From Chloroflexota bacterium (GTDB taxonomy: Bacteria > Chloroflexota > Anaerolineae > Anaerolineales > Anaerolineaceae): a stretch of DNA of 11,681 bases. The notes beneath the pieces were generated by a model, which was not told the origin of the DNA, ran no database searches, and saw only the letters and a list, made by a program, of their open reading frames with translations. Position 1 is the stretch's first letter. Every line of letters begins with the position of its first letter. Shown here piece by piece: positions 4,220 through 11,681 of this stretch. Both the position numbers and the translations under genes were made by a program. Location: assembly GCA_012797215.1 (NCBI GenBank), contig JAAZPN010000182.1:1-11681 (forward strand), in the 5' to 3' direction.

Positions 4220-5947
4220 TTATTGTGATGAGACGCGTTCTGATTCGTGCTGCATGATGCGGCGTAGAATTGCCAGCGAACTGGCATAGGTGGAATCCAT
4301 GCCCTGGTAGGAAAGCGCGCCGGCCCCAAGGTTTTGACCCTTCGTCAGGGGGGTATCTGAGACGTAATGTAAAATGCCCAGATCGAAGGGCAGTTTGTGG
4401 AGATTTACAATTTCGTTCACCGGGTGCCGCTGCGGCCGGAAAAGTTCGTAAATGGCTGAAAGATAAGGCCCAGCTTCCATCTCGATATCTGTGTAGCCTT
4501 CGCGGTAGATGACATCCATAACCGTGGCGTTCTGTAAAAAAGTACCCCAGACCGAGACTGCTTTTTGGTTATCCAGCACGGTGCCATATGTCAGGTAAGG
4601 GGAGAGGTCCGATGCTTGAAAGTTGTTGTCAAAGATATAAGTATTTTTGGAGTGCTCGTCGTAGACGACATTTGGCAGGATGACATCGCCGCGCACCCCA
4701 TTCAGACTGGCTGCTTTTCCCATCACATAGATACCCAGGATTTGGGCCGCGTTTTCCGCGATCTTCGTCAGCAGGTGGTACGCGCCAAACCCGAGCGGAT
4801 AATCAATATTCACAATAAGCGCGTCAGAATTTGGTAAAAAAGCCCACTCGCGGCAGCCCGGCTGCGCGCAGGGTGTGATGCGGGAATCGATGCTGGTTGG
4901 ATTCAGCTTGGAAATATCAATGACCTGCGCTTCGGTATCAAAAGCATGCATGCTTGGAAAGCGGAAGATTCCACGTTCTTTTTCAAAGCGAAGCTGTTCT
5001 TGCCATGCTTCGGCGCCAGCTGCTGAGGATTGGAACTTTTTCATGACGTAATAGAAAAAGTTCTCTCTGCTGGAAGGGACAGCCTTGTTCTGGATATCCT
5101 GCCACTCTGCCAAAAGAGCAGGTTGGTCAGCGCTGTTGACGAAGTCGATTAGTTGCCGCTGTTTGCTGAGCGCGAAGCCCGAGAGCAGGTTCACGAGGCT
5201 GTGGGTGTTGGAAGAGACGAAATAAATCGGGCGCTGATTTATACCTGGATACTGCTTTTCTATCTTTTCCCACCAGGTTTCGGTGGCTTTGCGGTAATCA
5301 TTTAGAGAACCGCTGAGCAGTTGCAGTCGAAAATTGCATTTCACGCTGGCAAAAAGCCCAAAGACTTCGTCAAAGCGTTCACCCAAAACAGTATAAAGTC
5401 TTCCCAGGTCGGCTTCGCTCATCCTCAGTTGGTTAGCTAATTGTTGGAAACGCACTGGTTCAGCGGGGGATGCATTCAGATAGCGTTCCTCGGGAATTTG
5501 ACTTAGCAGCGCGTTTAGCTTATTCCATTCAATTTGCAGAGCCGTGAGCGTGGGCACCACGTCATCGATATCGGAGCGCGAGGCGATGTAGCACGCCATT
5601 TGCTCGCCGCCGTCGTAAAAGCAGCGTCTGCGCCGCGCGCGGGCAGCTACTTCCGTCCAGGTTTCCACGCTGCCATAGCCGTGTTGAGAAAAATTGCTCT
5701 CCGTTTGTCCCAGAATGATTTTCTTCACATTAAAGATGCACTCTGGCAGGCGCTGCAGGCTGTAAATCAGAGCAGAGATATCCGGGTAAGGTTCGCGGGC
5801 ATTCGGGTGCAGCGAGGAATTAATCCCGGAATGCACTTCTTCGAGCGAACGGATTTGCACGACGTTCGTGGAGCGCAGCAGCGAGTAGATAGTGCGAAGA
5901 TATAGATCAATTTCCTCAGAAGAGCGAACCGGAACCTGTCTTTCCAT
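4220..5947 (-). CDS. Uncharacterised 575-aa protein, possible nucleoside-phosphorylase-like C-terminus
   Basis: I do not recognise this protein with certainty; it recalls a large conserved family of unknown function (possibly the one labelled DUF6909). There is no signal peptide or membrane segment, so it should be cytoplasmic. The N-terminal part (about 1-400) is mainly helical and contains FYDGGEQ and a following SRSDIDDVVPTLTALQIEWN stretch. The C-terminal part is dense in conserved-looking motifs: MGKAASLNGVRGDV from 409, FDNNF near 439, AVSVWGTF near 463-470, EMEAGP at 489-494 and SDTP at 530-533. An EME after a small hydrophobic strand and a late S-D pair recall the ribose- and base-binding motifs of the PNP/UDP phosphorylase and AMP nucleosidase superfamily; this is inference. 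ATG 5947 is preferred over the in-frame start at 6055 because AGGA lies 9 nt upstream and the longer version would run through the promoter of the divergent HAD gene. Confidence 0.85.
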   Translation of the reverse strand: MERQVPVRSSEEIDLYLRTIYSLLRSTNVVQIRSLEEVHSGINSSLHPNAREPYPDISALIYSLQRLPECIFNVKKIILGQTESNFSQHGYGSVETWTEVAARARRRRCFYDGGEQMACYIASRSDIDDVVPTLTALQIEWNKLNALLSQIPEERYLNASPAEPVRFQQLANQLRMSEADLGRLYTVLGERFDEVFGLFASVKCNFRLQLLSGSLNDYRKATETWWEKIEKQYPGINQRPIYFVSSNTHSLVNLLSGFALSKQRQLIDFVNSADQPALLAEWQDIQNKAVPSSRENFFYYVMKKFQSSAAGAEAWQEQLRFEKERGIFRFPSMHAFDTEAQVIDISKLNPTSIDSRITPCAQPGCREWAFLPNSDALIVNIDYPLGFGAYHLLTKIAENAAQILGIYVMGKAASLNGVRGDVILPNVVYDEHSKNTYIFDNNFQASDLSPYLTYGTVLDNQKAVSVWGTFLQNATVMDVIYREGYTDIEMEAGPYLSAIYELFRPQRHPVNEIVNLHKLPFDLGILHYVSDTPLTKGQNLGAGALSYQGMDSTYASSLAILRRIMQHESERVSSQ

Positions 5948-5984
5948 GGCGGGATGTCCTTTAATATTTATTGAGCGTTTTTCA

Positions 5985-5993
5985 ATTTTATCA
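5985..5993 (-). promoter_or_regulatory. Possible extended -10 promoter of the 4220-5947 gene
   Basis: Read on the minus strand, 5993 to 5985 is TGATAAAAT, an extended -10 (TGn plus TAAAAT, 5 of 6 matches). The bases 17 bp upstream do not resemble TTGACA. The predicted start would give a leader of about 30 nt with AGGA before ATG 5947. Confidence 0.35.
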
Positions 5994-6021
5994 TGCCGGT
6001 GCAGAGACCCTCGGCATACCT

Positions 6022-6027
6022 TATAAT
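6022..6027 (+). promoter_or_regulatory. Probable -10 box of the HAD phosphatase-rsmI unit
   Basis: A perfect TATAAT occurs 26 bp before ATG 6054, with a strong ribosome binding site between. The -35 region (about 5999-6004, GTGCAG) is poor, so the promoter may be weak or activator-dependent. Confidence 0.45.
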
Positions 6028-6053
6028 TGGGGCACAGAACGGAGGAGTCGCGC

Positions 6054-6662
6054 ATGCCAATTGATACTGTTATCTTTGATTTTGGGGGAGTTATTCTGCG
6101 TTACCTGGATCCCGACTGGCTGCGTGAGACACTGCCATATGGCGAGCAAATCCAAACCGCGGTTTATGAGTATCTGGAATCAGAGGTTCTGTGGGATGTA
6201 ATGCGCGGAAATCTTAGCGAATTGGATTTCTGGACTGCAAAAGCGCAAGAGATGAACATTCCCGAGGAAGCGGTCAAACAGTATCTGCTAGTCCAGACTG
6301 CTCACGCGCAACTGGATTCAAAGGTGCTCGCACATATGGAGCGCTTAAAAGGAAATTACAAGCTGGGCATCCTCAGCAATGCTGGGAACACAACCAGAGC
6401 GCTGCTGGAGGGGCAATATCATCTCCATGAGCTGGTTGACGATATTGTGATTTCCGCTGAAGAGGGCTTAGTAAAACCCGAACCAGAAATCTATCAGCTC
6501 TCGGCGCGGCGGCTTGGAACGGAGCCGGAGCGCTGCGTCTTTGTGGACGATTTGCCAGAAAACATCCAGGCGGCGGAGAGCTTAGGCATGCGCGGTGTTT
6601 TGTTTACTGATGCTGAGAGCTCTCTAGCGCTGCTGGACGCGTTATTAGCGCAAGGAGATTGA
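6054..6662 (+). CDS. HAD-superfamily phosphatase (subfamily IA-like)
   Basis: A 202-residue cytoplasmic hydrolase of the haloacid dehalogenase fold, probably a sugar-phosphate or nucleotide phosphatase; the substrate cannot be read from sequence. Motif I is IFDFGGVIL with nucleophile D9. As in the YihX/epoxide-hydrolase-N-domain group, the second Asp of the usual DxD is replaced by Gly. Motif II is ILSNAG (S108), motif III is K141 in VKPEPEIY, and motif IV is FVDD (D165/D166). A helical cap lies between about 16 and 90. ATG 6054 is chosen because GGAGGAG (6041-6047) sits 6 nt upstream; an upstream in-frame start at 6027 falls on the -10 box. The stop is only 2 nt before the rsmI start, so the two are probably co-transcribed and translationally coupled. 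Confidence 0.9.
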
Positions 6663-6664
6663 CC

Positions 6665-7357
6665 ATGCTCTATCTGGTGGCAACTCCTATTGGCAATCTG
6701 GGTGATATGACCTACCGCGCCGTCGAAACCCTGCAAGGAGCGGACTTAATCGCGAGTGAAGACACACGAAAAACCAGCATTCTGCTTAAGCATTACGGGA
6801 TATCCAAACCTCAGGTGGCTTTCCACACCATGAACGAAGCCAAAATGACGCCAAAGCTGCTTGAGCGGCTGCTGGCTGGTGAAAACATAGCGCTTGTAAC
6901 CAACGCCGGCACGCCCGGAATTTCTGACCCTGGTTATTCCCTTACGCACGCTGCAGTTCAGGCCGGGGTCTCGGTTACGTCGATACCTGGTCCTTCCGCG
7001 GTCATCACTGCGCTTACACTCGCCGACTTGCCCTTACACAGCTTCACTTTTAAGGGCTTCCCTCCTCATAAAGAAGGCCCGCGCAAACGTTTCATGGAGC
7101 AGGAAAAGGACTCCCCGCACACCTTGGTCTTTTACGAGAGCCCTTATCGCCTAAACGCCTTTCTGAAAAACGCCCTGGAAGTTTTTGGGGACCGCCGCGC
7201 GGTCGTAGCGAATGACCTGACCAAGAAATTTGAAACCATCTGGCGCGGAAGCTTGCGAGAGGTCCTTGAACAGATGCAAAGCACGGACGTCAAGGGCGAA
7301 TTCTGCATTTGCATTGAAGGTCGTGTGGGGGAAAAGACTAAAACGCGAGAGGGGTAA
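6665..7357 (+). CDS. rsmI: 16S rRNA (cytidine1402-2'-O)-methyltransferase RsmI, short form
   Basis: RsmI methylates the 2'-OH of C1402 in the 16S rRNA decoding centre using SAM. The tetrapyrrole-methylase fold is evident from the N-terminal [15 protein letters not shown], the [15 protein letters not shown] segment, [12 protein letters not shown], and the [11 protein letters not shown] loop leading into the [14 protein letters not shown] segment. [13 protein letters not shown] is the typical late motif. At 230 residues it is about 50 shorter than the E. coli protein and ends right after the catalytic fold, so the small C-terminal helical domain is absent. ATG 6665 has AAGGAG at 6652-6657, 7 nt upstream; the in-frame TTG 6659 would be too close. 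It follows the HAD gene in one unit, and its last 20 nt overlap the convergent transporter gene. Confidence 0.95.
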
Positions 7358-8072
7358 GATCCTTCAGATCCGAATACGCATCCAGATTTTCGGCTTTTTT
7401 CAATCGATTAGTAATCCAATAGGTGGCGGGGGTCATGAGTACTTCCACGCCAACTTTAAATAAGTAATTGCTGAGCGTGAGTGTAAGGTAGAGCTCCCAT
7501 GGGAATACCCGCGTGAGTGACCCCACCGCGATGAAAATGGCAGTATCCACCAGTTCCCCGATAACCGTGGACCCGATGGTTCGCACCCAGAGCCATTTGC
7601 CCTGCGTGCTGTGCTTGAGCAGAGCCATGATGATGGCATTTGAAAAGCTGCCACCCAGATATCCAAGAAAGCTCGCCAGAACAATACCGCCTGAGCTTAC
7701 GCCTCCAAGAATCTTGTCATAGGCAGACTGCCCGACGGACTCCAACCACAGGGATTCTCCTGGCAGTCTTTGAATAAAGAAGAACATCAAGGCAGTGAAC
7801 GCCAGCCCCAAAAATCCTATCCAAATAACGCGCCGCGAGATTTTGTACCCATATACTTCTGTAAGAATGTCTCCGAAAATGTAAGCAACAGGGAAGAATA
7901 AGGTTCCAGCGTCAAAAGCCAGAGGAACACCTGCCAAAGAAACTCCCCAATCTATCAATTTGGCTGAAGAAGCAATGTTGCTGAGAGCAAGAACCAATGT
8001 AAAGACAACCGTTACGATATCCAGGTAACGGTACGCGCGTGGAGAGGAAGATTGGGGTGATGTTCGGTTCAT
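7338..8072 (-). CDS. yhhQ: YhhQ-type queuosine precursor transporter
   Basis: A 244-residue integral membrane protein of the YhhQ/DUF165 (QPT) family, whose E. coli member imports preQ0/preQ1 for synthesis of queuosine, the wobble-base modification of GUN-decoding tRNAs. About six hydrophobic segments are visible (roughly 16-38, 52-68, 82-101, 127-150, 165-186, 194-220). The family signature [11 protein letters not shown] (68-78) with the following SRRVIWIG is present, as are [17 protein letters not shown] (164-180) and a late [12 protein letters not shown] segment. ATG 8072 is chosen; the adjacent upstream codon is TTG. No Shine-Dalgarno sequence precedes it, and the TATACT box ends only 8 nt before the start codon, so the mRNA may be leaderless or nearly so. 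The organism probably salvages the precursor, but no queuosine biosynthesis gene is in view. Confidence 0.92.
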
Positions 8073-8079
8073 CAACGGA

Positions 8080-8107
8080 AAGTATACCTTTTTTTACAGG
8101 TATACTT
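8080..8107. promoter_or_regulatory. Inverted repeat carrying back-to-back TATACT promoters (yhhQ / rsmE)
   Basis: A perfect 9-bp inverted repeat, AAGTATACC (8080-8088) and GGTATACTT (8099-8107), flanks a 10-nt spacer of seven T plus ACA. Each arm contains TATACT reading outward: 8101-8106 on + toward rsmE (ATG 8117), and 8086-8081 on - toward yhhQ (ATG 8072). No convincing -35 element is present for either. Predicted transcription starts fall within a few nt of each start codon. The repeat may be simply two mirrored -10 boxes, or an operator for a dimeric regulator that controls both genes. Confidence 0.6.
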
Positions 8108-8116
8108 ATTTTCACG

Positions 8117-8854
8117 ATGCAGCGCTTTTTTATCACCCCTAATGCCATACACGATGATTTGGTGCAATTCCCGGAAGCCATTGCCCGGCAGATGGAAAAA
8201 GTCTTGCGACTGGACCTGATGAACGATGAGGTAATTGTTCTCGATAATTCTGGAAATAGCTACCTTGTTCGCCTGAATGGCCGGCAGGCTGGCATTTTAC
8301 ATGGCGTGATTCTGCAAATTACCGAAACAAATCCGCGGACAGGGCTTAAGCTCGAGCTCGGTTTCAGTTTGACCAAGCGGGAAAAGGTGGAATGGATTCT
8401 GCAAAAAGCGACAGAACTGGGTGTTAGCGTTTTCAGGCCATTCGTCTCGGAGCGCAGCCTTGACCGAGGATTGACATTGGGGAACGCCCGGCGAGAGCGC
8501 TGGACTGCAATTATCCGGGAGGCTGCTGAACAATCTCATCGCGCGAAATTACCGGAACTGCACGATCCGGTCGCTTTTCGGGACGCTCTCGACTGTTTTA
8601 CGCTGGACAGCCTCAGATTGTTTGCCTGGGAAGGCGTCTCACCGGAAATTCAAATCAAACCCGATTGGTTCAAAAACGCAAGCGGATTGAGTGTGCTGGT
8701 GGGTCCGGAAGGGGGCTTCAGCGCAGAAGAGGCGCGGATGGCTGCGGATGCGGGCTTCAGACACTTCTCGCTTGGACGACGTATCTTGCGGATGGAGACC
8801 GCCTGCCTAAGCGTCTGCGCGCTTGGCGCGCATTACCTTGAGCGAGCTGATTAA
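8117..8854 (+). CDS. rsmE: 16S rRNA (uracil1498-N3)-methyltransferase RsmE
   Basis: RsmE methylates N3 of U1498 in helix 44 of 16S rRNA at the decoding centre. The 245-residue length matches the family. An N-terminal PUA-like domain (about 1-70, starting MQRFFITPN) precedes a SPOUT (alpha/beta-knot) methyltransferase domain. That domain shows SLTKREKVEWILQKATELGV (84-103), REAAEQSHR (134-142, usually EQSGR), VLVGPEGGF (193-201) and the SAM-knot motif LGRRILRMETA (219-229). ATG 8117 aligns with the standard RsmE N-terminus; the frame is open further left but has no support. There is no Shine-Dalgarno sequence, and the TATACT box ends 10 nt before the ATG, so a leader of only about 3-5 nt is predicted. 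Its stop codon overlaps that of the convergent RsmF-like gene. Confidence 0.96.
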   Translation: MQRFFITPNAIHDDLVQFPEAIARQMEKVLRLDLMNDEVIVLDNSGNSYLVRLNGRQAGILHGVILQITETNPRTGLKLELGFSLTKREKVEWILQKATELGVSVFRPFVSERSLDRGLTLGNARRERWTAIIREAAEQSHRAKLPELHDPVAFRDALDCFTLDSLRLFAWEGVSPEIQIKPDWFKNASGLSVLVGPEGGFSAEEARMAADAGFRHFSLGRRILRMETACLSVCALGAHYLERAD

Positions 8855-10320
8855 GGACTGAGAAGAGCGCGGGAAGGCAGGAGATTGCGCAAGCGACCTG
8901 GAAGATTCTTTCCCGCCCCGAGGTTCCTGCCGTCGCCATCCCGCACGGCAATGATTGAAGCATTCCGGCAAGATGCGATGCTTGCGCCGCGGATTTCAGC
9001 GCCCTTCAGCCACTGAGCAATCAAATCATCCGGGATTATCCAGACATTGCTATTGAATCGGTCGCCAAAGCGGCTGACAATTTCCGCGGAGAGTTCAAAG
9101 TTTGATCCGCTCCACCGGCCAAATGGAAAGCCAAAGGCGTAATAAGGCAATTCTGAAAAGTGGCGCAGAAATTGTCCTGGTAAGAGAAAAAGTTGTTGTT
9201 CTCTTCGGTAGAGATGCAAATCTCGTTTTTCAAATTCCGGACTGAAATCAAAGCCGTACAAATCCGCCAATTCGCGCAGCAGAGCTACCCGGACTTTTTC
9301 CTCCAGGAGCTCAAGCCCGGTTTTTTTGAAAGGCCGTGTTGGAGGTAGCTGGCGTGGAAGCTTGAGCGCGGCTGTCTTGATTAGTTTCGCGGCAAAGAAG
9401 CCATTGGTGCCTGCCAAATGCGGCCAGAGCCGCAAGCTGGCAGCAGTCTGAGGGTTAAAGTTTCGGCCTTCAAATTCTGTCAGTCCAGGCGCATTCAGCA
9501 TGCTCTGGGGGCTTTCATCTACGCGGGCGGTTCCGGGATGCTTCTCCAAGAATGCACTCAGAACAGCTTCATCTTCCTCGGGGGCAAGCGTGCAGGTGGA
9601 ATAGACCACTTCAGCCCCAATTTTGGCCGCGCTTACGGCGGATTCGAGCAGGGCGAGTTGCCGCGCGGCTAATCTTTCCCGCTCTCCAACAGTAATTGGA
9701 CGGAAGGGATGGCTGGCGGAAACGCGCAGACCTTCCATACTGCAGGGCGCGTCGAGTAAGACCCGATCAAAAGTTTCTGGGAACCAAACACCGATTTTTT
9801 CACCGGCAAAATTGGTAATGGCTGTGTTGGCTGCTCCCCAGGTAAGCAATACCACCCGCAGCGCTTGCAGTCGATTAGCGCTCGAATCGTTGGCGACGAC
9901 AAGGTTGTTATCATCAGTGCTGTCCACAAGTTGGGTAGTCTTGCCGCCTGGTGAGGCTGCCATGTCCAGCGTCAATCCGCCGTGCGGGAGTTCTGAGAAA
10001 AGGTTCACTGGCAGGATGGAAGCCGCGTCCTGTAGATAGTAATACCCGAAGCGGTGTTCAATGGTTTGGCCGGGGGATGTCTGCGCGGAAGAAACCTGCC
10101 AGGCATTGGGTGCAAAACTAATCGGTTTTGATTGCCAGGCATAGCGCTCGCTCCAGCGGCCAAAAGCTTGGGGAGGATCGGGATTCTTGAGCAAATTGAC
10201 CCGCACGGCGGGATGCGCCGGCTGATTGGCGGCGTCCAGCAGCTGCGCGTAGCCATCGACAGTAAGGTAAGAACGGTAGCGTTCAGCTGCCGAAAACGCG
10301 GGTTGGATTGGCGAGTTCAT
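8851..10320 (-). CDS. rsmF: RsmF/NOL1-NOP2-Sun family 16S rRNA m5C methyltransferase with C-terminal PUA-like region
   Basis: A SAM-dependent RNA cytosine-C5 methyltransferase; the E. coli relative RsmF modifies C1407 of 16S rRNA. The 489-residue length is close to RsmF (about 480). An N-terminal RNA-contacting part (1-115, with HPAVRVNLLK at 36-45) leads to motif I DMAASPGGKT (119-128), NDSSANRL (144-151), motif IV DAPCSMEG (190-197, C193) and motif VI STCT (241-244, C243). Both cysteines of the release/catalysis pair are intact. The C-terminal part (about 330-489) ends in GRNLGAGKNLPGRLRNLLP, typical of the PUA-like domain appended to RsmF. Its ATG overlaps the stop of the upstream Arm/Rmt-like gene in an ATGA (10317-10320), implying translational coupling. 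Target C1407 is inferred from family and context; other m5C sites (for example C967 of RsmB) are less likely because of the C-terminal domain. Confidence 0.93.
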   Translation of the reverse strand: MNSPIQPAFSAAERYRSYLTVDGYAQLLDAANQPAHPAVRVNLLKNPDPPQAFGRWSERYAWQSKPISFAPNAWQVSSAQTSPGQTIEHRFGYYYLQDAASILPVNLFSELPHGGLTLDMAASPGGKTTQLVDSTDDNNLVVANDSSANRLQALRVVLLTWGAANTAITNFAGEKIGVWFPETFDRVLLDAPCSMEGLRVSASHPFRPITVGERERLAARQLALLESAVSAAKIGAEVVYSTCTLAPEEDEAVLSAFLEKHPGTARVDESPQSMLNAPGLTEFEGRNFNPQTAASLRLWPHLAGTNGFFAAKLIKTAALKLPRQLPPTRPFKKTGLELLEEKVRVALLRELADLYGFDFSPEFEKRDLHLYRREQQLFLLPGQFLRHFSELPYYAFGFPFGRWSGSNFELSAEIVSRFGDRFNSNVWIIPDDLIAQWLKGAEIRGASIASCRNASIIAVRDGDGRNLGAGKNLPGRLRNLLPSRALLSP

Positions 10321-11141
10321 GATTGTGTCCGACCCTTTCGGATAACAAACAAGAGCTCATCCACCACTTGGACTCTCTCCACGGTCCAACCGCGGCCGGC
10401 TGTCGCCCTGGTAATTAGCTGCGTGTGGTAGTCCGTTAGTGAATGGTGGCCGCTCAAATCCGAAGCCGGCAGGCTGACCAGCAAAAGAGGAGCGTTCAAA
10501 GCCGCCAGGAATGGACCGTTGCAGCCGGGCCGCCTTTTCTCGAAGCGGTGCGCTTCTTTAAAGAAGAAAACACAATCCGCCTCGACTAGCGGAGCTTGGG
10601 CGAGAACATCCTGATGAATCGCGCGGGAATTGGGGGAATTCAGGGAAAAAAACCGGTTAAGAAAATCTACCCGGGGTTTGTGTATATCATACGCGTAAAA
10701 AGTTGCCGTTTGGGGCAGCCCGAGCCAGGGCAGCATCAACGGATCCAGCGCGCAGGCAAGGTCGAGGATGGTAGTGGGGCGGCCAATAAGCTCCAGCAAA
10801 ACCTGGCAAAAAGTTTCCAGGTGCCCCAGCCGTTCACGCGTAGAGGCATGTTTTGCCATAAGCTCGGCCGACCAACTTTTCACTTCCGCCCCCGACGGAG
10901 AGCCATGAAAAAAACTGAGCATCTTTTCGGTCTCCGCGCGGTAATCTATCTTCTCCAAGTACGGCGCTACGATGTTGTGCACCTTTTTGCGATACGCGGA
11001 AGTAATTTCTGCTGAGCTGCCGCCCTTAGCTGCTTGTTCCATGAGAATCTGGCGCAGCATGTCCTCCGGCAAGTCCAATTCGCGGTAATTGCGCGACGAG
11101 CGCGTTTCAGAAATAACTTTTTGGAGGAGACTCTCGTCCAT
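10317..11141 (-). CDS. Divergent Arm/Rmt-family 16S rRNA (guanine1405-N7)-methyltransferase paralogue
   Basis: A 274-residue relative of the m7G1405 methyltransferases (ArmA, RmtB, Sgm, FmrO) that confer high-level resistance to 4,6-disubstituted deoxystreptamine aminoglycosides. The full two-domain plan is present: a helical N-terminal rRNA-binding domain (1-95) and a Rossmann MTase domain with HASTRERL (98-105), DLACALDPL (127-135), YDIH (151-154), QDVL (177-180), FFFKEAHRFE (192-201) and SLPASDLSGHHS (223-234). Compared from memory with RmtB, the SAM loop ACGLNPL has become ACALDPL, FKLLPLLE has become FKEAHRFE, and the SFPTRSLGGRGKGM catalytic loop has lost its TRS and GRGKG elements. Activity or target may therefore have changed, or the protein may be a partner subunit. 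ATG 11141 has GGTGA 4 nt upstream and starts 4 nt after the preceding paralogue's stop. Family membership is firm, function is not. Confidence 0.88.
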   Translation of the reverse strand: MDESLLQKVISETRSSRNYRELDLPEDMLRQILMEQAAKGGSSAEITSAYRKKVHNIVAPYLEKIDYRAETEKMLSFFHGSPSGAEVKSWSAELMAKHASTRERLGHLETFCQVLLELIGRPTTILDLACALDPLMLPWLGLPQTATFYAYDIHKPRVDFLNRFFSLNSPNSRAIHQDVLAQAPLVEADCVFFFKEAHRFEKRRPGCNGPFLAALNAPLLLVSLPASDLSGHHSLTDYHTQLITRATAGRGWTVERVQVVDELLFVIRKGRTQS

Positions 11142-11145
11142 TAAT

Positions 11146-11681
11146 TCACCGCGAAAGCAGGAAGACCATTTCATTCGGAAAATTAAACTCGCGGACTCTG
11201 AAGGATGTCCCTTTGATTAGCTGCGCGAATTGGAGTGAGTAAGTCTGTCGCATACCCTTTTCCCTGCCGCTCAGGCTTCTGGCTGGATAAGAAATCAGGA
11301 TGTGTTCGGCATCTAAATCTGCCAAAAGGCGCGCGCCGAGCGTTTTATCCAGTTGATCCAGGCATGGCAGCGTTTTTAGTAAAAGCGCAAGCTGAACCGC
11401 TTGGTTTGGGATGCGCGCGCTTAGGTCACATGGAAACGCTGAACCCCGAATGTTGGACCACTCAAAGAGCTGATTTAGGAAAGCAAGCATCGGCAGGACG
11501 ACATCACAGGCGTGATACACACAATCAGGTGAGAGAGGCATCCAGGGCAGCGCCAGCGGATTAAGACCACATGCCAGATCCAGGATGGATGTAACGGGTG
11601 AAATATCTGCCAAACAAGTTGTATAAAAATGCTTGATGTAAGGCAGCCGTTCCGCTGTCGAATTGTGCAAACGCATCAACC
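11146..11681 (-). CDS. Arm/Rmt-family 16S rRNA (guanine1405-N7)-methyltransferase, 5'-truncated by window edge
   Basis: The last 177 codons of an m7G1405 methyltransferase homologue; the frame is open to the right edge, and the N-terminal rRNA-binding domain (about 90-100 residues) lies outside. Numbering from the first whole codon at 11679, the core is close to canonical: LHNSTAERL (4-12; RmtB has LHASTKERL), DLACGLNPLAL (34-44), YHACDV (55-60), LALLLKTLPCLDQ (97-109) and SYPARSLSGREKGM (130-143; RmtB has SFPTRSLGGRGKGM). The SAM loop and the catalytic loop are conserved, so it is likely active. If it modifies G1405 it would protect the 30S subunit from gentamicin/kanamycin-type drugs. The ATG at 11676 is internal and not the start. 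It is the first visible gene of a - strand operon with its paralogue (4 nt apart) and the RsmF-like gene. A function other than resistance cannot be excluded. Confidence 0.88.
   Translation of the reverse strand, partial: LMRLHNSTAERLPYIKHFYTTCLADISPVTSILDLACGLNPLALPWMPLSPDCVYHACDVVLPMLAFLNQLFEWSNIRGSAFPCDLSARIPNQAVQLALLLKTLPCLDQLDKTLGARLLADLDAEHILISYPARSLSGREKGMRQTYSLQFAQLIKGTSFRVREFNFPNEMVFLLSR

Follow-up and report, generated by a model that had tools for sequence, protein, structure and literature searches.

The acquired 16S ribosomal RNA (rRNA) methyltransferases (16S-RMTases) of the Arm/Rmt family are usually traced to aminoglycoside-producing actinomycetes (passages in PMC9311965 and PMC12406665), and one review describes the enzymes of producers and those on plasmids as close relatives (PMC6804068). 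Among described systems, the rmtG operon is one to set beside the locus reported here. A passage in a review describes it as rsmH-tgt-rmtG-rsmI, printed there with rsmL (PMC9311965), and a transfer RNA (tRNA) ribosyltransferase upstream of rmtG has also been noted in part of another paper (PMC3904158). We analyzed a stretch of 11,681 nt from an Anaerolineaceae bacterium of the phylum Chloroflexota (contig JAAZPN010000182.1, assembly GCA_012797215.1; hereafter the window), which ends in two adjacent Arm/Rmt-type genes, FmrO-A (A) and FmrO-B (B). Like the rmtG operon, the Anaerolineaceae locus combines a C1402 methylase, a noncanonical transglycosylase that we call Tgt2, and then a putative G1405 methylase. 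Unlike that operon, it is chromosomal and often includes the second methylase, B, and an RsmF-like gene, whereas the rsmI of the rmtG operon is only a 98-aa fragment. The rmtG operon is already known, and the main points of this report are B and the link through Tgt2. In the open-access literature we found no paper on the A–B locus and none on a chromosomal family linked to the rmtG operon.

Both genes belong to the Arm/Rmt family. Against the Pfam family PF07091 (FmrO; cut-off 27 bits), A scores 123.6 bits (E = 1e-35) and B 140.2 bits (E = 1e-40), far beyond chance, and both proteins show the Arm/Rmt fold with its N-terminal extension. The motifs listed by the first-pass annotation are all present, reading HNSTAERL, DLACGLNPL, LLK and SYPARSLSG in A and HASTRERL, DLACALDPL, FFK and SLPASDLSG in B. 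The tight adjacency that it had claimed is borne out by the TGA of A at 11148–11146 and the ATG of B at 11141–11139. An alternative ATG at 11174 would give a longer B, and most aligned relatives start near 11141. Of gene A (11146–11679), 177 of ∼270 residues are visible, with the reading frame open at the window end; its full-length stand-in is P0121 (270 aa), which is near-identical (99% over the common part). The further claim that both are homologues of N7-methylguanosine (m7G) 1405 methylases stands in part. Profile, fold and residues place them in that superfamily, but neither reaches the cut-off of 250 bits for the NCBIfam Rmt equivalog NF000466 (158.9 bits for A, a window-truncated fragment, and 144.5 for B). 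Because both fall short of it, G1405 is a provisional target for A and a doubtful one for B, which has lost target-loop residues common to the six clinical enzymes examined.

The conserved residues set the two proteins apart. One genome per species was scanned with A-derived patterns, and the best 80 of 313 encoding stretches were kept as loci; all contain A by construction, and 56 contain B. From these 80 loci came 79 A and 53 B sequences, to which ten class loci added 10 and 2, giving 89 A and 55 B sequences after exclusion of pieces of ≤230 residues. The core positions H98, E103, R104, D127, C130, P134, D152, K195 and P225 (A numbering) are kept in 54–55 of 55 B and 88–89 of 89 A sequences, with D127, C130 and P134 present in every B. 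Window A retains 22 of the 26 residues that RmtB, C, D, E, F and ArmA all share (among them H, ST, ER, D, C, NP, D, K, P, GM, Y and E; four differ), and window B retains 15. The KGM loop is found in 85/89 A and 0/55 B sequences. At the positions of the GM...Y target loop of m7G1405 methylases, B has the G in 0/55 (its site is aligned to a gap in all 55), the M in 1/55 and the Y in 7/55. In turn, the motif K[ET].H[RK] occurs in 55/55 B and 0/89 A sequences. Judged by these residues, A, with the target loop of the family, is probably a chromosomal m7G1405 methylase. Because B keeps the core residues but has had its target loop replaced, it probably acts elsewhere.

A different account of B is that it serves as a partner of A, either a heterodimer subunit or a substrate-loading factor, and has lost target recognition of its own. 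The missing loop fits this account, as does the closeness of the two genes, which are no more than 100 nt apart in 50 of the 56 loci with B. The N-terminal domain, the 30S-binding part in RmtC, is also less basic in B (mean charge −1.3 over 53 sequences) than in A (+4.0 over 88). Charge is a weak guide, however, since the same count gives −1 for RmtE, 0 for RmtD and +1 for window A. Moreover, the core residues are conserved equally in B and A, B has an invariant motif of its own, and it lies 217–2645 nt from A in the other six loci and elsewhere in three genomes. On balance we regard a partner role as doubtful.

A and B are 29% identical, and because of this distance we consider them long-separated paralogues rather than the product of a recent duplication. 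A recent tandem duplication is ruled out both by this identity and by their separation into two clades in a tree that includes environmental homologues. That tree was a quick one of 106 subsampled rows (51 A, 30 B, 18 environmental Rmt-like and 7 known enzymes), with branch support from the Shimodaira–Hasegawa-like approximate likelihood ratio test (SH-aLRT) and no bootstrap; ArmA forms a long branch in it, and some rows have odd composition. B forms one clade of 30 rows (SH-aLRT 99), and A forms one clade of 50 of its 51 rows (97). The seven known enzymes (RmtB, C, D, E, F, ArmA and Sgm) all fall outside both; the placement of Sgm is provisional, with a support of 74 from a partial sequence. 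No Rmt enzyme lies inside either clade, so A or B as the direct source of the clinical genes is unsupported, and the tree does not make either of them the origin of the mobile resistance genes sampled here. Across 54 loci, with mean distances of 0.54 and 0.56, A and B diverge in step (r = 0.84, a value reached in 0/999 permutations), which shows joint inheritance rather than contact. The one row counted as A that falls outside its clade, L088, represents a third type of PF07091 protein, whose KSSTCLERQRKGS / LGQREKGM pattern resembles that of Sgm; a Tgt2 lies ∼0.7 kb from this gene.

The family is widespread among relatives of the window. PF07091 is found in 127 of 147 Anaerolineaceae species genomes (the GTDB family of Bellilinea), in 126 of them above the cut-off; 112 genomes match at least twice and 15 once. 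The first-pass annotation had guessed at either a resistance reservoir or a housekeeping version of the family, and the latter is the better fit. Could the pair nonetheless be a resistance or self-protection locus, as in aminoglycoside producers? Studied members of the family do confer resistance, according to passages in PMC12406665, and A retains most residues that are invariant in the clinical enzymes. But we judge the distribution wide for a drug-specific trait, the neighbours of A and B are rRNA and tRNA modification genes, and no antibiotic biosynthesis or export gene was found by family match among the ten window proteins scanned. By comparison, the sisomicin-gentamicin resistance methylase Sgm (PDB 3lcu/3lcv) comes from an antibiotic producer, and it has the KGM...Y loop that B lacks. 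We consider a resistance or self-protection locus improbable.

Recent acquisition on a mobile element is highly improbable. The Arm/Rmt family is best known from plasmids, and a relative of A turned up in 1592 of 72,556 plasmid records, but none of these reaches 60% identity. Of the 50,697 records in a phage collection, just two give a match (29.4% identity). The survey of related genomes found B beside A (≤100 nt) in 50 of the 80 loci, each from a different species record, with chromosomal-type neighbours conserved in relatives. The window itself shows no mobile or plasmid context: family profiles found no mobile-element protein among the ten proteins scanned, and the earlier remark that no transposase lies nearby holds for these ten. 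A and B are not recent resistance genes but a real, conserved chromosomal feature.

Gene order around the pair is conserved to varying degrees. The RsmF-like gene follows B in 51/56 loci, the exceptions being three loci that end there (L007, L011 and L074) and two that continue (L015 and L060). In five one-copy family members (L026, L032, L034, L040 and L047), A is immediately followed by the RsmF-like gene, which suggests a loss of B. All eight second copies retrieved within the family were of B type; of six retrieved outside it, one has KE.HR, four are nearer B without this motif, and one is A-like. In a phylum sample of 301 genomes, five places score >220 bits on a B profile and all others ≤176. 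A fixed operon across the phylum is rejected: Tgt2–A is near-constant in loci found with A, whereas RsmI and RsmF are not.

The connection to mobile genes runs through the partner gene Tgt2, which lies upstream of A in relatives and outside the window; a Tgt2 of the window's own, if any, would lie beyond its end. In locus L001, a transglycosylase gene upstream of A overlaps the A start and encodes a second, noncanonical tRNA-guanine transglycosylase. Tgt2 is upstream of A in 76/80 loci; two others begin at or within A (L018 and L057), and two have none (L046 and L067). In L071 and L075 it is ∼2 kb off A. A search of 16 genomes gave both canonical Tgt and Tgt2 for 13 of the 14 that contain PF07091, Tgt2 alone for the remaining one (G004), and canonical Tgt alone for the two that lack PF07091. 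Within the family, Tgt2 occurs in 117/147 genomes, including one (G386) with PF07091 below the cut-off, and in 0 of 20 without PF07091. An overlapping class sample has Tgt2 in 47/298 genomes, every one of which belongs to the 74 that carry PF07091 (Fisher p = 7e-36, a value that ignores kinship); the two genes are ≤400 nt apart in 36 of these, ≤6 kb apart in 4 and elsewhere in 7. In Armatimonadota, Tgt2 occurs in 9/151 genomes; each is one of the 10 that carry PF07091, and the two genes are always ≤90 nt apart. Because Tgt2 is restricted to PF07091 genomes, a substrate in common is suggested. A partnership obligate in both directions is rejected, as 27/74 class genomes (with no more than six candidates scored in each) and 10/127 family genomes with PF07091 yielded no Tgt2.

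Tgt2 has the active-site residues of canonical bacterial Tgt, the queuosine wobble enzyme, but a different base pocket. All eight aligned positions D76, D134, Q186, D263, C314, C316, C319 and H345 (L001 numbering), presumably catalytic and zinc residues, are invariant in 22/22 rows (16 Tgt2, 6 canonical). The two types are 31–38% identical. Where canonical Tgt reads GGL[SA]VG (15/15), Tgt2 reads GGWPL[DN] in 81/84 hits in loci L001–L089, the other three being truncated pieces. Tgt2 forms a clade separate from canonical Tgt (SH-aLRT 100) in a 58-row tree for which the tool warns of long branches. Position-matched in our alignment, Tgt2 reads W-P-L over 231–233. Because queuine use requires a glycine at Val233, according to part of PMC3660597, Tgt2 is unlikely to be a queuine enzyme.

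The same type of gene stands beside several plasmid-borne rmt genes. Eight plasmid rmt contexts were opened, five from the search with A and three picked through a search with the rmtD-linked Tgt (67 records), so the four that have a Tgt2-type gene do not give a frequency. The gene lies upstream of rmtD1 (found by the search with A), of rmtB2 (with a metallophosphoesterase between), of rmtE2 (with the 5′ end of tgt cut) and of rmtG, whose plasmid context reads rsmH-tgt-rmtG followed by a fragment of rsmI. It was not seen within 4–5 kb of rmtE (plasmid pRMTE4), rmtF, rmtB1 or rmtC, and a paper on rmtE makes no mention of tgt (PMC10132066). The four plasmid Tgts are 45–53% identical to five chromosomal Tgt2 proteins and 33–38% identical to four canonical Tgts, and they group with Tgt2 (SH-aLRT 100) in the same 58-row tree. 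Their signatures read GGWPLD (rmtD, rmtB2), GGWPLG (rmtG) and GGFPVN (the rmtE2 piece), so GGWPL is not universal. On TIGR00430, the equivalog model of canonical Tgt (cut-off 306.75 bits), L001 Tgt2 scores 306.9, and the rmtD, rmtG and rmtB2 Tgts score 291.2, 296.2 and 317.7. Like A, then, rmtD1, rmtG, rmtE2 and rmtB2 are all preceded by a Tgt2-clade gene, and some acquired 16S-RMTases are tied to a chromosomal RNA-modification module through Tgt2. The methylases themselves are more distant. RmtB, C, D, E, F and ArmA have their Pfam family in common with A and B, but they are plasmid-borne rather than chromosomal, fall in separate clades, and are 24.8–33.0% identical to A in rows of at least 84% coverage among the 60 of 1592 matches listed.

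Relatives of the plasmid enzymes that bear a name, as most rows do not, come from Lachnospiraceae, Oscillospiraceae and Treponema metagenome-assembled genomes, at 45–48% identity to RmtE. Metagenome proteins 72–77% identical to RmtE, together with these named relatives (P0243–P0246, P0260, P0270 and P0320 among the two groups), point to possible homes of the RmtE lineage. An open reading frame overlapping the rmtE end (L121 5816–6178, L157 6564–6881) resembles the start of a truncated lipoprotein solute-binding protein. Its L121 copy gave no family match in profile scans, and by its resemblance it is perhaps a trace of a donor chromosome.

Our preferred reading, which we think fairly probable, is that A and B are an ancient chromosomal pair of Arm/Rmt 16S methylases in a decoding-centre (helix 44) modification locus, with A likely the m7G1405 enzyme. 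Because the targets of RsmI, RsmF and RsmE (C1402, C1407 and U1498; stated in part of PMC12406665) lie near G1405 in helix 44, the window is a cluster of predicted decoding-centre methylase genes. The normal role of A would most likely be to methylate G1405 at N7 in the assembled 30S subunit, and intrinsic resistance to 4,6-disubstituted deoxystreptamine aminoglycosides would be a by-product. B is a duplicate that this analysis met in Chloroflexota only, and it has probably kept the binding of S-adenosylmethionine (SAM); with its target loop and an active-site segment exchanged, it would most likely methylate another nucleotide or substrate, acting on another site or together with A. Tgt2, with transglycosylase residues kept and base pocket changed, would act on a substrate common to the PF07091 enzymes. 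Since m7G1405 enzymes are reported to hinder RsmF at C1407 in Escherichia coli (part of PMC12406665), coupled synthesis of the A–B pair with the closely packed RsmF-like enzyme may set the order of action.

Several points weigh against this reading. The same reported block of RsmF is an odd fit with one gene run for both activities. The presumed target of A rests on homology, and C1407 is a presumed target of the RsmF-like protein, which scores 220.3 bits on NF008898 RsmF (cut-off 588). B was not found in 24/80 loci, although in one of these the contig ends in A (L042) and in three the genomes carry B elsewhere (L050, L055 and L063). Of 68 testable loci, 46 have the RsmF-like gene right after A or the B next to it, and 28 have RsmI right before Tgt2. 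Because only 74/298 class-sample genomes carry PF07091, it is dispensable outside Anaerolineaceae. Finally, helix 44 gives no hint of a B target in the 17 16S loci of 15 genomes compared (two genomes with two 16S copies each). Over ∼1400–1410 and 1490–1500, G007 and G012, family genomes with one PF07091 copy, have the same letters as genomes with two copies; G002 (two copies) and the non-family G257 deviate by a few letters.

A more speculative proposal, which we put forward tentatively and think rather unlikely, concerns the partner gene. Tgt2 could be a 16S rRNA-guanine transglycosylase acting at or beside G1405 in helix 44, as part of a two-enzyme system with the Arm/Rmt methylase; it would exchange a guanine at the same ring position (N7/C7) as its partner modifies. 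If so, Arm/Rmt enzymes would be half of an unrecognised system that modifies the decoding centre. Plasmids would have taken rmtD, rmtG, rmtE2 and rmtB2 from this system, and B would have its place in it too. Even apart from this proposal, a chromosomal Arm/Rmt branch looks like ordinary rRNA modification in most members of one environmental bacterial family, its locus includes a second, re-tooled methylase, and its partner gene belongs to the same clade as the gene beside four mobile rmt types. The pre-antibiotic role of Arm/Rmt enzymes thereby becomes a question answerable in culturable type strains; A and B are present in those of Bellilinea caldifistulae (L033), Longilinea arvoryzae (L043), Levilinea saccharolytica (L068) and Ornatilinea apprima (L036).

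Table 1. Positions of A, B and neighbouring features in the window
Feature	Coordinates	Strand	Details
FmrO-A (gene A), canonical-type Arm/Rmt (PF07091) methylase	11146..11681	minus	5′ part beyond window end
Spacer, A stop to B start	11142..11145	minus	4 nt, read directly
FmrO-B (gene B), diverged Arm/Rmt paralogue, 274 aa	10317..11141	minus	
B motif DLACALDPL, residues 127–135	10737..10763	minus	D127, C130, P134 conserved; presumably SAM-binding
B signature KEAHRFEKRRPG, residues 195–206, replaces KTLPCL of A	10524..10559	minus	K[ET].H[RK] count
B DLSGHHSL, residues 228–235, replaces A loop SLSGREKGM	10437..10460	minus	KGM count, Gly gap
RsmF/NSUN-like rRNA 5-methylcytosine methylase	8851..10320	minus	PF01189, 122.3 bits (cut-off 27)
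RsmE-family RNA methylase, convergent neighbour	8039..8854	plus	TIGR00046, 148.5 bits (cut-off 41)
Queuosine precursor transporter	7338..8075	minus	TIGR00697, 104.2 bits (cut-off 50.95)
RsmI, 16S C1402 2′-O-methylase	6659..7357	plus	TIGR00096, 228.7 bits (cut-off 167.9)

At the right end of the window, transcription runs from A through B to the RsmF-like gene, close-packed (Table 1). The ATG of the RsmF-like gene overlaps the B stop as ATGA, so the gene run continues past the pair; its product also passes RsmF_N (35.3 bits, cut-off 34). Close relatives have two RsmI-type genes (L001 7222–7929 and 13601–14296). The copy upstream of Tgt2 is diverged (171.8 bits, cut-off 167.9), and the other, which lies further downstream, is typical. 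L049 and L070 have a typical RsmI in the position upstream of Tgt2. The 16S locus L107, from G002 (the genome of L002, a window relative), reads GTCAAGTC ... GACTAAGTC in helix 44, against GTCACGTC ... GACGAAGTC in the other 16S loci of the family that were compared; its 1409–1491 pair, in the aminoglycoside site, is A-U and not C-G (E. coli numbering assigned in this analysis). Further into the window, a DUF6909 protein of 611 residues lies at 4220–6055 (737.8 bits), and its relatives occur in the same neighbourhood in 18/80 loci, several other loci stopping short of that point.

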